Shown here: positions 1,498 to 6,338 of the stretch, piece after piece
Layout: each line of letters begins with the position of its first letter
Numbering within the stretch: the first letter of the stretch is position 1
Assembly: GCF_019295435.1 (NCBI RefSeq)
Contig: NZ_WEKL01000010.1
Span: 1-64,000 of the forward strand
DNA: 64,000 bases
From: Aquimarina litoralis
Lineage (GTDB): Bacteria; Bacteroidota; Bacteroidia; Flavobacteriales; Flavobacteriaceae
Direction: 5' to 3'
Notes under the pieces: generated by a model
What the model was told of the DNA's origin: nothing
Databases searched by the model: none
What the model saw: the letters and a program-made list of their open reading frames with translations, nothing else
Made by a program: the position numbers and the translations under genes

Positions 1498-2352
1498 TTA
1501 TTTCTTACTACGAATTCCCAAAAATATCGCTAATCCTCCTGTAAAAAACATTAGTAAACTATAGACGGCTGGAGCAATAGCGTATGATGTACTATGTAGG
1601 ATGGCAATTGCTATCGAGATTGCAAGTGTTCCATTTTGAATACCTGACTCTATTCCTATAGAAATAGCACCTCGATGATGCACTTTTAAAAGCTTAGCAG
1701 AATAATACCCTATTGCCATGGTTAAAATATTCAATAAGAAAGCTACTAATCCAGCTTCTCGTAAATAGGAAACGAAATTGTCCTTTTCCTTAACCAAAAT
1801 ACCAATAATAACCAGTGCTAGTACGATTGCAGAGGCTATTCTGACTGGTTTTGCCATTTTCAGCGCGAAACCTTCATTATATTTTCTAATAATCATACCT
1901 ATAGAAACAGGTATAATGATAATAACAAAAATCTGGATGATTGTTTCTACGACATTCAATTGTATTGTTTGATTCTCTGATAAAAAATGAAGTAAAGAAA
2001 AATTGACTATAAATGGTATAGTAATAATAGTAATCAAACTACTAAAAGCCGTAAGTGTAACAGATAATGCAGTATCACCATGTGCCAAATGAGAGATTAA
2101 ATTAGAAGTAGCTCCGCCAGGACAAGCAGCCAATATCATAATTCCAATTGCAATTTCTGATTCTAAGGATAATACAGATACCAAAGTAAAAGCTACTAAA
2201 GGTAAAATTAAAAGTTGATTTATAAGGCCAACCAGAATGGCTTTTGGGTAGATTAGTATTCTTTTGAAGTCAGATGTAACTAATGATAATCCCATCCCTA
2301 GCATAATGATTATCAAGGATGCTGCCAATATAATAGTTGAAATGTTATCCAT
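1498..2352 (-). CDS. BASS-family (bile acid:sodium symporter-like) transporter
   Basis: A 284-residue integral membrane protein with about 9-10 hydrophobic helices. The motif ACPGGATSN at residues 76-84 is typical of the bile acid:Na+ symporter (BASS) family, which imports organic anions together with sodium. The length fits short bacterial BASS proteins. It lies alone on the - strand between + strand tRNA genes, so it interrupts the array and probably has its own promoter. Start MDNIS (ATG at 2352) leaves a 90-bp gap to tRNA-His. The substrate cannot be told from sequence, and no function linked to tRNA is evident. Confidence 0.85.
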   Translation of the reverse strand: MDNISTIILAASLIIIMLGMGLSLVTSDFKRILIYPKAILVGLINQLLILPLVAFTLVSVLSLESEIAIGIMILAACPGGATSNLISHLAHGDTALSVTLTAFSSLITIITIPFIVNFSLLHFLSENQTIQLNVVETIIQIFVIIIIPVSIGMIIRKYNEGFALKMAKPVRIASAIVLALVIIGILVKEKDNFVSYLREAGLVAFLLNILTMAIGYYSAKLLKVHHRGAISIGIESGIQNGTLAISIAIAILHSTSYAIAPAVYSLLMFFTGGLAIFLGIRSKK

Positions 2353-2616: not shown

Positions 2617-2937
2617 ATGAAAAATAATTTATTACAAAGGTTTTTATGTAGAACTGAAGATACAGGAAGATTCATAGTTCAATCCAAGATTACTGGTATT
2701 ACCTATTTCGTAGAACCAATAGATAATGGGAAACCAGATAAACTTTGGGGTGACCTGGATCCTGCTACCAAAAAACTTACCGGTGATTACGGTAATGTAC
2801 GAAGAGGTGCGATTAAAAAAGAAGAGTCTTTAATCTCTAAAGAAAATGGGTTTAAAAACATCTCTATTTTCAAAGGAAGTCCTTTAGGAGAAATCGATAG
2901 ACGAGATCGCGAATATGAAATATCATATAACCCGTGA
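2617..2937 (+). CDS. unknown 106-residue protein inside the tRNA array
   Basis: I do not recognise this protein. It is small, soluble and highly charged, with no signal peptide or membrane segment. It begins MKNNLLQRFLCRTEDTGRF and has a polar middle (PIDNGKPDKLWGDLDP) and a C-terminal part rich in Arg, Glu and Lys. The ATG start follows an A/T-rich leader 22 bp after tRNA-Phe. The next small gene begins 23 bp downstream, so the two are probably co-transcribed with the tRNAs. Its position between tRNA-like elements and the slipin gene suggests an RNA-related role, but this is context only. Confidence 0.6.
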   Translation: MKNNLLQRFLCRTEDTGRFIVQSKITGITYFVEPIDNGKPDKLWGDLDPATKKLTGDYGNVRRGAIKKEESLISKENGFKNISIFKGSPLGEIDRRDREYEISYNP

Positions 2938-3126: not shown

Positions 3127-3266
3127 TAATTACTACGCAAATAGATTGCGCTAATACATTACACCTTTGTGTAGTAATTAAAGCAAACCCTTTTATATGG
3201 GGGAAACAAATGGGGTTTGAAGTAGTGCCCTGCTATAAAGTGAGGATGAAAATAGCAGGGCTTTTG
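3127..3266 (+). ncRNA. candidate structured RNA with three successive stems
   Basis: Three strong inverted repeats follow one another. A 10-bp closing stem TAATTACTAC/GTAGTAATTA (3127-3136 with 3171-3180) encloses two small hairpins (GCAA/TTGC and ACAC/GTGT). Next is a 7-bp stem CAAACCC/GGGTTTG (3184-3190 with 3213-3219). Last is a 9-bp stem GCCCTGCTA/TAGCAGGGC (3227-3235 with 3253-3261) followed by TTTT, a plausible terminator. Either a non-coding RNA or the structured 3' untranslated region of the small genes upstream. I cannot assign it to a known family. Confidence 0.4.
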
Positions 3267-3301
3267 ATAAAATAAAGTTGAAAGCATAAATTATTAATTA
3301 G

Positions 3302-3321
3302 ATTCCAGCCTTCGCTGGAAT
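3302..3321. repeat. short dispersed palindrome followed by GACAG
   Basis: attccagc-cttc-gctggaat forms an 8-bp stem with a 4-base loop and is followed by gacag. A similar element followed by gacag occurs at 30630-30649. Such short palindromes are common between genes in this phylum. Confidence 0.6.
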
Positions 3322-3448
3322 GACAGTATCAATCAAGTCTTGTTGGGTGTTTCTGTATAGCACTATTGTATGGAGAGTTGCAGTTTTGTATGACCTCTTT
3401 ATATACAACTTGGTTTGAAGGTTAGGCTATTAACCAAATAATAGTCAC

Positions 3449-3540
3449 ACTCTATAGGACATGGGTTCGATTCCCATCGGGACCACTAAAAACAGATACA
3501 AAATGGTCCCGTAGCTCAGTGGCTAGAGCGATAGATTTTT
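3449..3540 (+). tRNA. candidate permuted tRNA-Lys (TTT): 3' half then 5' half
   Basis: A 3' half (3449-3485: loop end ac, anticodon strand tctat, variable aggac, T-arm atggg-ttcgatt-cccat, acceptor cgggacc, discriminator A) precedes a 5' half (3505-3540: acceptor ggtcccg, ta, D-arm gctc-agtggcta-gagc, g, anticodon strand ataga, ttttt). The spacer is 19 nt. Joined as 5' half plus 3' half they give exactly 73 nt, with a perfect 7-bp acceptor, a perfect 5-bp anticodon stem and loop tttttac (TTT). No ggtcccg partner lies upstream. The alternative is remnants of two tandem tRNA-Lys copies. Confidence 0.55.
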
Positions 3541-3617
3541 TGTTCATGTGGGTTCGAGTCCCACTATCTTTTTAGAGATATGGCGGAATTGGTAAACGCA
3601 CTAGATTAGGGATCTGG
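3541..3617 (+). tRNA. candidate permuted tRNA, Leu-like 5' half (weaker case)
   Basis: A 3' half (T-arm gtggg-ttcgagt-cccac at 3548-3564, acceptor tatcttt) is followed after 2 nt by a 5' half (acceptor agagata at 3574-3580, Leu-type D-arm gcggaattggtaaacgc, anticodon stem ctaga/tctgg). The acceptor strands pair over 7 of 7 positions including one wobble. The loop ttaggga would give anticodon AGG, which conflicts with the Leu-type D-arm. The spacer is too short to hold a discriminator base, so this pair is less convincing than its neighbours. Confidence 0.35.
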
Positions 3618-3648
3618 CGAACAAGGCACTGAAAATGCCTTTTACATT

Positions 3649-3730
3649 GCATGGGTTCGAATCCCATCGAGACCACCAAATTAGGTTTCGTAGCTCAGTT
3701 AGGTAGAGCACTACACTCATAATGTAGGAT
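3649..3730 (+). tRNA. candidate permuted tRNA-Met (CAT): 3' half then 5' half
   Basis: A 3' half (T-arm atggg-ttcgaat-cccat, acceptor cgagacc, discriminator A3675) is followed after 8 nt by a 5' half (acceptor ggtttcg at 3684-3690, D-arm gctc-agttaggta-gagc, anticodon stem ctaca/tgtag with loop ctcataa, CAT). The acceptor strands pair 7 of 7 with one wobble. I see no cgagacc-like strand downstream for the 5' half. Joined in reverse order the pieces give a canonical elongator-Met-like cloverleaf with the join in the variable loop. Confidence 0.5.
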
Positions 3731-3733
3731 AAA

Positions 3734-3839
3734 AGCTAATCATCTTATAAAACTGATTGACAAAAACTGTGAACTCAAATCTGTTTTTATAGTGCTCTTG
3801 CTATAAAAACAATCTTGAAAGTACTTTGAAATATTAGCT
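3734..3839 (+). other. inverted repeats before the slipin gene
   Basis: AGCTAAT (3734-3740) is complementary to ATTAGCT (3833-3839). It encloses a perfect 11-bp hairpin TGTTTTTATAG/CTATAAAAACA (3782-3792 with 3801-3811). The structure directly follows the last tRNA 5' half, so it could be the tail of that transcript or a leader of the slipin mRNA. From 3840 to 4000 I see only A/T-rich sequence. Confidence 0.4.
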
Positions 3840-4000
3840 ATGCTATGATTGGAAATAATTACTTTTTTCTATCCAAATATGAAATTATTGTATATAAAAT
3901 ACAGATCTTTTATTTCGATATTAAAAACTACTTATGACCGATATAACATCCTATAATTTCCGTATTGGAAAGATGATTTGTTTTCACTGTTTTTTAAAAA

Positions 4001-5188
4001 ATGAAATCGATAATACCTCCGTTACAGGATTATCATCCAATTAATGTTAAATCTGTCTGTTCATTAACAGACATAAAAACTAAGAAAATGAAACGAGTAC
4101 GAATCAATGCTGGTACAGTGGGATTGGTTTTCAGGAAAGGTGACTACAATCGTGTAATTACACAAGGAACTCATTGGTTAAGATTTGATGAACGTATAAC
4201 AAAATACGATCTTTCTAAACCTTTCACGACTCCTGTAGCACTAGAGATCTTATTGAAAGATACAACATTGGAGGATATGCTACATGTGATTGAGGTAAAA
4301 GACAATGAAATTGTTTTGGTATATGAAAATGGAAATCTCAAAAGTGTTTTTCCTGCAGGTAGATATACGCTATGGAATAGTTTATACACTTATAAATTTA
4401 TAAGAATAGATCTTAGTAAAATTTATATCACAGAAAAAATTGAAAAGTCATTGTTCAGTAACTACTCCATCAGCAAGTACATTAGAACTTTTGAGGTAGC
4501 AGCCTATGAAAAAGCTGTACTTATCGTGGATGATGTATATAGTAAAACACTGAATAGTGGTACATATCGTTTCTGGAAAAATGATACAACCATTAAAATT
4601 GCCAAAGTAGATCTACGTCAATTACAACTGGAAGTAGCTGGTCAAGAGCTATTAACCAAGGATAAAGCTGCTATTCGAATCAATTTCGATGTACAGTATA
4701 AGGTAGTAGATATAGAAAAAGCTTTGCTTGATAACAAAGACTATTCAAGACAATTATATATCGCGATGCAATTAGCACTAAGAGCTTTCGTAGGAAATTA
4801 CACGTTAGATGAATTACTGGAACGTAAAGATAGTATGGCAAATGCAATACTAGAATCTACAAAAAACCAAGTAATCAAACTAGGTGTAAAAGTATTGAAT
4901 TGTGGTATCAGAGATATCATTCTGACTGGTGAAATGAAAGAAATCATGAACCAAGTTCTGATTGCACAAAAGAAAGCTCAGGCTAATACTATTACCAGAC
5001 GTGAAGAAACTGCATCAACCAGAAGTTTGCTAAATACTGCAAAGCTTATGGAGGATAATGCTATGCTCTATAAGCTAAAAGAAATGGAGTATGTAGAGAA
5101 AATTGCTGATAAAATTGGTGAAATAACAGTTTCTGGTAATGATGGTGTAGTAAAACAATTGAAGGATATATTCTCTACGAATAAATAA
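4001..5188 (+). CDS. SPFH/Band-7 domain protein (slipin)
   Basis: A 395-residue slipin-type SPFH protein. The core VRINAGTVGLVFRKGDYNRV near residue 33 and the SPFH stretch up to about residue 320 are followed by an Ala/Lys/Arg/Glu-rich helical segment (QKKAQANTITRREET) and a second helix, suited to oligomer rings. No clear membrane helix is present. In other bacteria such proteins accompany the RNA ligase RtcB and tRNA-like RNAs in proposed RNA-repair systems. No ligase is inside this window, but the array continues beyond the left edge. The ATG at 4001 follows aaaaa; an internal ATG at 4088 (MKRVRINAG) would match the usual slipin start, so the first 29 residues are uncertain. Confidence 0.8.
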   Translation: MKSIIPPLQDYHPINVKSVCSLTDIKTKKMKRVRINAGTVGLVFRKGDYNRVITQGTHWLRFDERITKYDLSKPFTTPVALEILLKDTTLEDMLHVIEVKDNEIVLVYENGNLKSVFPAGRYTLWNSLYTYKFIRIDLSKIYITEKIEKSLFSNYSISKYIRTFEVAAYEKAVLIVDDVYSKTLNSGTYRFWKNDTTIKIAKVDLRQLQLEVAGQELLTKDKAAIRINFDVQYKVVDIEKALLDNKDYSRQLYIAMQLALRAFVGNYTLDELLERKDSMANAILESTKNQVIKLGVKVLNCGIRDIILTGEMKEIMNQVLIAQKKAQANTITRREETASTRSLLNTAKLMEDNAMLYKLKEMEYVEKIADKIGEITVSGNDGVVKQLKDIFSTNK

Positions 5189-5446: not shown

Positions 5447-5828
5447 CAAAAAAGTGTATTTTATCCAAAATAAACGCTTTTTAACATTTTTAATAGCCTA
5501 AATTAATTTATTTTGTAGTCTTTTTCTTTCAAATTTAAAATATTTTGATAAAAGCCTAAATTTTGGTAGGGTATATCGCTCTTACTTTGTTTTAGAGTTG
5601 TAAATTTTATGTTAGCACCAATACAATTAAAGTTTTCTAGAAATGTGGATTTAATTTAATTTTTTCACATTGGATAACTTGACATTATGTTTTAACATTA
5701 CATAAAATGAACATTTATAACTATTAATAGAGAATTAAAGTATCTGATAAGCTATCATATTTATGATACTATTTTATCTGTGCGTACCAAATAATCTATT
5801 AACTTATAGCCAACTAAACAAAAAAGAA
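5447..5828. other. gap without a gene before the sigma factor
   Basis: A/T-rich. The first 80 bases, up to about 5530, resemble the sequence at 14723-14806 beside small RNA copy 4, so they belong to that repeat. The rest holds no frame I would call. A weak promoter-like pair near 5573-5600 may serve the sigma gene. Confidence 0.4.
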
Positions 5829-6338
5829 ATGCCGGAACAAATAAGTGTATGTGACGAAAAGGTATATGACGAATTATATAGACAACACGCTGAAAAGATA
5901 TGCTACTATATTTATTACAAATATGGTGATATGGAAAAAGCTCAAGATATAGTACAAGATAGTTTTGCAAAACTTTGGGTTAATTGTTCCAAAATTATTT
6001 TTGGTGCTGCGAAAAGCTTTTTATATAAAATAGCCAATAATGCTTCTATTAATGATGCAATACATCAAAAAACAGTATTAAAATATAAATCAACACCACA
6101 AAAAACATATACTAATGAATCTCCTGAATTTCAAATGGAAGAAAAGGAATTCATGGATAAATTAAATCATGCCATTAGTGATTTAAAAGAGGGACAAAGA
6201 GAAGTTTTTCTTCTCAATAGAATTGAAAAGAAAACCTATAAAGAGATTGCAGAATTGTTAGGAATCTCAGTAAAAGCAGTTGAGAAACGAATGCATTTGG
6301 CTTTAGTAACGCTTAGAAAAAAAATTGGAAAAATCTAG
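5829..6338 (+). CDS. ECF RNA polymerase sigma factor (FecI-like)
   Basis: A 169-residue sigma-70 family protein of the extracytoplasmic-function type. Region 2 (YDELYRQHAEKICYYIYYKY, then DMEKAQDIVQDSFAKLW) binds core enzyme and the -10 element. Region 4 (TYKEIAELLGISVKAVEKRM) is the helix-turn-helix for the -35 element. I start at the ATG at 5829 (MPEQIS) because the 22 residues encoded before it are not sigma-like. The anti-sigma gene follows after 83 bp and the TonB receptor after that, the usual order of Fec-type surface-signalling systems. It probably drives the two receptor modules downstream. Confidence 0.9.
   Translation: MPEQISVCDEKVYDELYRQHAEKICYYIYYKYGDMEKAQDIVQDSFAKLWVNCSKIIFGAAKSFLYKIANNASINDAIHQKTVLKYKSTPQKTYTNESPEFQMEEKEFMDKLNHAISDLKEGQREVFLLNRIEKKTYKEIAELLGISVKAVEKRMHLALVTLRKKIGKI

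Follow-up and report, generated by a model that had tools for sequence, protein, structure and literature searches.

Locus and architecture of the RNA

The window analyzed here is a stretch of 64,000 nucleotides from Aquimarina litoralis (family Flavobacteriaceae; contig NZ_WEKL01000010.1, positions 1 to 64,000 of the forward strand). Close to its start lies a conserved element predicted to be a single noncoding RNA of ~670 nt (about 3326 to 3995), referred to below as the RNA, and directly downstream on the same strand is a gene encoding a slipin-like SPFH/Band_7 protein of 366 amino acids (4088 to 5188; Pfam PF01145, E value of 3.8e-28, 99 bits). The initial annotation had described three pairs of tRNA halves at 3449 to 3730, in which the 3' half precedes the 5' half and the acceptor strands are complementary. 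All three pairs are present, with seven of seven acceptor positions paired in each, and the feature is real; however, its extent was drawn too short, as the pairs appear to be part of the longer RNA, which is probably transcribed as a separate molecule.

The RNA begins with a 5' domain (3326 to 3450) whose fold, defined in an alignment (A1) of 32 distinct 5' domains from relatives, combines two hairpins and a closing helix with an H-type pseudoknot (GGTT...AACC). It is followed on the same plus strand by three permuted tRNA-like modules, each of which runs from a T arm through the 3' acceptor strand and a short loop to the 5' acceptor strand and a D arm. Module 1 (3451 to 3535) comprises the 3' strand of an anticodon stem (3451 to 3455), a T arm (3461 to 3477), the 3' acceptor strand CGGGACC (3478 to 3484), a loop, the 5' acceptor strand GGTCCCG (3505 to 3511), a D arm (3514 to 3529), and the 5' strand of the anticodon stem (3531 to 3535). 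Module 2 (3548 to 3617) has a T arm at 3548 to 3564, acceptor strands TATCTTT (3565 to 3571) and AGAGATA (3574 to 3580), a Leu-like D arm, and its own anticodon arm. Module 3 (3651 to 3727) has a T arm at 3651 to 3667, acceptor strands CGAGACC (3668 to 3674) and GGTTTCG (3684 to 3690), and an anticodon stem-loop with the loop CTCATAA. The acceptor pairing of modules 2 and 3 includes G-U pairs, and in contiguous order just 2 to 3 of the 7 acceptor positions of the window units would pair. The RNAs of relatives contain two to four modules, mostly two or three, and the loops joining the acceptor strands are mostly 0 to 5 nt long.

An ARAGORN search called no tRNA within 3449 to 3730. The Rfam tRNA model gave three matches slightly over its threshold (30 to 32 bits), two of which span model positions 8 to 63 only, and thus the acceptor stem is absent from those two. 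No open reading frame of at least 80 amino acids was found in 3200 to 4000.

The RNA ends with a conserved 3' domain (3728 to 3995), conserved blocks of which were found in 21 relatives; 33 of its 65 predicted pairs showed double-sided changes in an unrefined alignment. Its terminal motif, ATTTCCGTATTGGAAAGATGATTTG...CTGTTTTTT, occurs in many relatives, and in many of them a U-rich tract lies 3' of it. Judged from this conservation, the 3' end of the RNA would be at about 3995. The minimum free energy fold of the single sequence 3326 to 3725 is more stable than those of shuffled sequences (z of -2.73) and does not recover the conserved fold.

A small palindromic repeat, attccagccttcgctggaatgacag, at 3301 to 3325 immediately precedes the RNA, and the Rfam FtrB model matches it weakly on the minus strand; the repeat occurs at this position in the window species and its closest relative (L002) and not in most others. 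In three other loci (L147 at about 4026, L052 and L055 at about 10550), the RNA starts directly where a tRNA-Tyr gene ends, which suggests that tRNA processing could free the 5' end of the RNA.

Permuted modules and tRNA genes

A DNA search of 56 genomes, comprising the window genome and its relatives, found the whole RNA stretch at 77% to 91% identity in five further species of the genus and parts of it in others. The same RNA is present in loci of Tenacibaculum, Kordia, Winogradskyella, and Psychroserpens, which were retrieved with tblastn through a neighboring gene for a 106-amino-acid protein and hence independently of the RNA. In alignment A1, in which 43 pairs cover the 5' domain and the first T arm, 97.3% of the cells were paired, compared with about 40% in slid controls. 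Double-sided changes were found in 18 pairs (9.4 in shuffles), and the covariation score was 0.283; shuffles reached 0.150, and slid controls did not exceed 0.081. In L052 and L055, the pseudoknot stem GGTT/AACC is replaced by ACCA/TGGT with the pairing preserved.

The acceptor strands of the relatives were located by their position beside the T and D arms and not by pairing. In 74 modules from 32 relatives, which include 46 distinct acceptor pairs, the permuted order paired 6.47 of 7 positions, compared with 2.36 of 7 for the contiguous order. Further relatives were found using a model (R1) that covers only the 5' domain and the first T arm; because R1 ends at the T arm, the acceptors and D arms of this independent set (27 loci, mostly from other genera, with 50 units) were unselected, and they paired at 6.06 of 7 positions in permuted order and 2.77 of 7 in contiguous order. 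For distinct acceptor pairs of module 1 in both sets, 6.05 of 7 positions were paired, and shuffled partners gave 3.9 (maximum of 4.95) and 3.6 (maximum of 4.52). The anticodon stem of module 1 paired at 4.57 of 5 positions in the combined set, above the shuffled maximum of 4.39, when a variable loop of 4 or 5 nt was allowed. Because the observed partners of both stems exceed every partner shuffle, module 1 is predicted to be a closed cloverleaf with a loop-capped acceptor end, rooted on the anticodon stem, which connects it to the conserved 5' domain. The compensatory acceptor changes that the initial annotation had suggested looking for are kept in relatives as dozens of acceptor sequences with pairing retained, and the module 2 pair, described there as the weaker one, is no weaker in relatives than the others.

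Decay of tandem tRNA genes would fit the decayed tRNA pieces in the array upstream of the RNA. However, dozens of compensatory changes over many genera speak against it and the covariation in the independent set contradicts it, so the probability of this origin is practically negligible; the initial annotation had also disfavored decay, rightly so given an arrangement conserved far beyond chance in the 32 relatives and the independent set.

The proposal in the initial annotation that the pairs are permuted tRNA genes, with tRNA-Lys and tRNA-Met among them, fared less well. Such genes would yield functional tRNAs after splicing and ligation of their products, for which RtcB may be the enzyme. 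The permuted order, the perfect acceptors, and the RtcB ligase often encoded close by are in favor of this proposal. In algae and archaea, permuted tRNA genes likewise have the 3' half first and acceptors that pair over a short intervening sequence, and an archaeal permuted tRNA with an intervening sequence of 1 nt exists (PMC3978253), so the shortness of the intervening sequence would not by itself defeat this explanation. More weight against it comes from the variable anticodons and from the conservation of the flanking domains. Across relatives, unit 1 has 25 different would-be anticodons and the last unit has 14, and the modules lie within a longer bacterial RNA whose non-tRNA 5' domain is conserved together with them. 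In addition, the number of units is variable, acceptor loops can be as short as 0 nt, and the window genome contains ordinary contiguous genes for tRNA-Lys(TTT), tRNA-Leu, and tRNA-Met. True permuted tRNA genes are thus very improbable. Because the permuted pairing is conserved, the anticodons are not, and ordinary tRNA genes are present, the modules appear to be tRNA mimics within a longer noncoding RNA, neither permuted tRNA genes nor products of decay. A phage origin was also considered, and a distant search of phage records returned tRNA matches only.

Slipin gene and RNA-repair setting

In every intact relative, the slipin gene lies directly downstream of the RNA on the same strand. Among 299 Flavobacteriaceae genomes (the genome sets used in this study are samples), 29 contain the RNA, 29 contain the slipin gene, and 28 contain both (Fisher's exact test, P of about 5e-37); in each of these 28 genomes, the RNA lies next to slipin on the same strand, 620 to 1,200 nt before the ATG. 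The distance from the terminal motif to the ATG varies widely, from roughly 60 to 510 nt. The exceptions are informative, as they amount to joint loss of the RNA and slipin. In G091 (L147, 4025 to 4150), the RNA is cut just past the pseudoknot stem, leaving only the 5' domain, and the modules and slipin are lost while RtcB, PrfH, and RlaP are retained; in G255, a slipin fragment with a stop remains and the RNA is absent. A slipin profile (A2) searched against 395 Bacteroidota genomes retrieved 20 full-length members, including some from other families and orders, and nearly all 20 have an R1 match or permuted modules upstream.

An AlphaFold2 model of the slipin (mean pLDDT of 81) comprises three five-stranded beta repeats, an SPFH domain, and a 64-residue helix, which is the order found in the major vault protein (MVP; Foldseek E value of about 1e-9). 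Residues 3 to 351 of the predicted monomer align in order with MVP residues 323 to 721 (VIA Z of 11.9, with a large root mean square deviation of 7.7). However, the slipin is far shorter than MVP, it was compared as a predicted monomer, any cage formed by it is putative, and for the SPFH part alone, other SPFH proteins match the model better than MVP does.

Around the RNA-slipin pair, the loci encode the RtcB ligase, PrfH, the nucleotidyltransferase RlaP, the 106-amino-acid protein, a TPR/lysine-rich protein, and a regulator classed as WYL-type by its sequence and not by family search; RtcB, PrfH, RlaP, TROVE, or tRNA arrays recur among them. The arrays contain up to 18 tRNA genes, and G134 has a TROVE protein gene at the locus. 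The pair is linked to the RNA-repair genes for RtcB, PrfH, RlaP, or RtcR. RtcB is encoded in 24 of the 29 RNA-positive genomes, compared with 41 of the 270 others (P of about 1e-13). In the window, ARAGORN identified ten tRNA genes on the plus strand at 47 to 2595, with remnants of others, and tRNA arrays occupy the corresponding place upstream of the RNA in many relatives. The gene for the 106-amino-acid protein, identified by tblastn (2617 to 2937, plus strand), is recurrent in these RNA-repair loci, and the protein co-occurs with RtcB, PrfH, and slipin in the relatives retrieved through it. Truncated tRNA pieces split by unrelated sequence were observed at 420 to 520, 955 to 1010, and 1080 to 1140, and the array looks as if it is rapidly rearranging. 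A gene for an SBF-type transporter (1498 to 2352, minus strand) lies inside it.

Slipins and other SPFH proteins, which share the SPFH domain of the window slipin, have also been placed in rtc loci elsewhere. An SPFH protein lies inside the rtc locus of Pseudomonas aeruginosa (PMC13086221), and in Anabaena the repressor TrcR is common to slipin, rtcB, and a tRNA array (PMC10272220). Outside the phylum, Citrobacter has the gene order rtcR, slipin, nucleotidyltransferase. Elements bearing a T arm were found 190 to 400 nt upstream of slipin homologues in Escherichia coli, Citrobacter, Burkholderia, Photobacterium, and Subdoligranulum, some of them contiguous and tRNA-like, which offers a lead beyond Bacteroidota. 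In Citrobacter and E. coli (L231 and L232, both at about 5800 to 5850), a T arm and a capped acceptor hairpin lie about 190 nt upstream of slipin, and the stretch upstream of slipin occurs in 1,624 of 5,426 complete E. coli genomes, with slipin as the sole annotation there among the records listed. In Photobacterium and Burkholderia, two tandem tRNA-like units upstream of slipin are contiguous and not permuted (L236, 5632 to 5769; L234, about 5600 to 5700; L235, 4998 to 5070).

Y RNA comparison and proposed function

YrlA, the bacterial Y RNA, which occurs alongside rtcB in RNA-repair operons (PMC7790460, PMC8394870), also has a T arm, a closed acceptor stem, and a D arm in permuted order. The cmscan alignment and the covariation indicate that such a module is present in the RNA: the YrlA model (Rfam RF02553) matches 3431 to 3558, which includes module 1, with 43.3 bits and an E value of 3e-8, below its gathering score of 69, and module 3 with 32.4 bits; relatives score 32 to 46 bits. 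A Y RNA acting with the Ro60 protein Rsr would accord with this architecture and with the TROVE (Rsr/Ro60) genes of the window genome and of G134, where the gene is at the RNA locus itself. However, TROVE is encoded in only 2 of the 29 RNA-positive genomes and in none of the other 27, and the TROVE gene of the window genome is located elsewhere, next to a separate Y-RNA-like array. The RNA also differs from YrlA in its chain of two to four modules, in its different, pseudoknotted 5' domain, and in having slipin rather than Rsr as its constant partner. In YrlA, Rsr binds a basal stem formed by the 5' and 3' ends; the 5' domain of the slipin-associated RNA closes on itself in alignment A1. Because the score is below the cutoff and Rsr/Ro60 is absent from 27 of 29 hosts, the RNA is not assigned to the Y RNA family, which it appears to resemble in tRNA mimicry; a Y RNA acting with Rsr is improbable. 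The separate array (L066, 6880 to 8170, minus strand; G000:C82), downstream of the TROVE/Ro60 gene, contains about seven genes with the motif GTGTCGTA...GTTACTTCG ... TTTTTGCCTT, which differs from the slipin-associated RNA, and the tRNA-like insert or remnant differs in each gene. Transfer-messenger RNA (tmRNA; RF00023), including its two-piece permuted form, likewise combines tRNA mimicry with pseudoknots; as a candidate it was rejected, as the RNA gave only a weak partial score of 18.2 bits against a cutoff of 47 and the window genome has its true tmRNA elsewhere (C102, 145.8 bits).

The RNA is probably a tRNA mimic that serves as a scaffold or decoy in an RNA-repair system of slipin and RtcB. 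Each module would present a tRNA elbow, formed by the T and D loops, and because its acceptor end is closed by a short loop, it could not be charged. Together with the downstream slipin, the RNA constitutes a two-gene unit within RNA-repair loci of the RtcB/PrfH/RlaP type that carry tRNA arrays. SPFH proteins form rings and cages. As a scaffold, the RNA would bind slipin and bring tRNA-cleaving nucleases and tRNA-binding factors onto its possibly cage-like oligomers; as a decoy, it would bait the same factors. In both cases, RtcB-type repair would be directed to real damaged tRNAs. The decoy idea parallels an earlier proposal in which YrlA competitively inhibits an anticodon nuclease (PMC7790460).

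Several observations weigh against a slipin-RtcB scaffold or decoy. RtcB is not encoded in every locus, an RtcB match is absent from 5 of the 29 RNA-positive genomes, the window genome has RtcB on other contigs, and a sigma-70 promoter scan performed no better than on shuffles. The invariable position of the RNA upstream of slipin also belongs here, as it fits the chief alternative, namely, that the slipin mRNA has the RNA as its 5' untranslated region, a cis-acting leader in which competition between the tRNA-like modules and tRNA for a sensor protein would switch slipin expression upon tRNA damage. tRNA-like leaders controlling genes, such as that of E. coli thrS, provide a precedent, and no strong terminator was found in a scan between the RNA and slipin. 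However, a simple leader would not need a pseudoknotted domain and two to four modules in tandem, the spacing between the end motif and the ATG is variable, and the U-rich tract follows the terminal motif in many relatives. A cis-acting leader is rather unlikely, albeit worth keeping in view.

A bacterial vault-like ribonucleoprotein, in which a slipin cage would hold the permuted tRNA-mimic RNA, with a TROVE protein in some hosts, and act in tRNA repair, would parallel the eukaryotic vault with its MVP, its TROVE domain protein TEP1, and its vault RNA. Such a particle, which draws on the predicted slipin model, is speculation and unlikely.

The RNA family is absent from Rfam 15 and from the full texts searched, a search that did not include the core Y RNA and RNA-repair papers, so an earlier description is possible; the family is apparently undescribed. 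It consists of permuted tRNA modules strung together and almost strictly coinherited with one SPFH protein, and it explains the broken or backwards tRNAs that tRNA finders report at such loci. With it, bacterial RNA repair gains a tRNA-mimic RNA that is independent of Ro60, and the role of slipin in rtc loci and their adjacent tRNA arrays becomes directly testable. The link between slipin and the RNA may represent a new kind of RNA-protein partnership that repairs or guards damaged tRNA.
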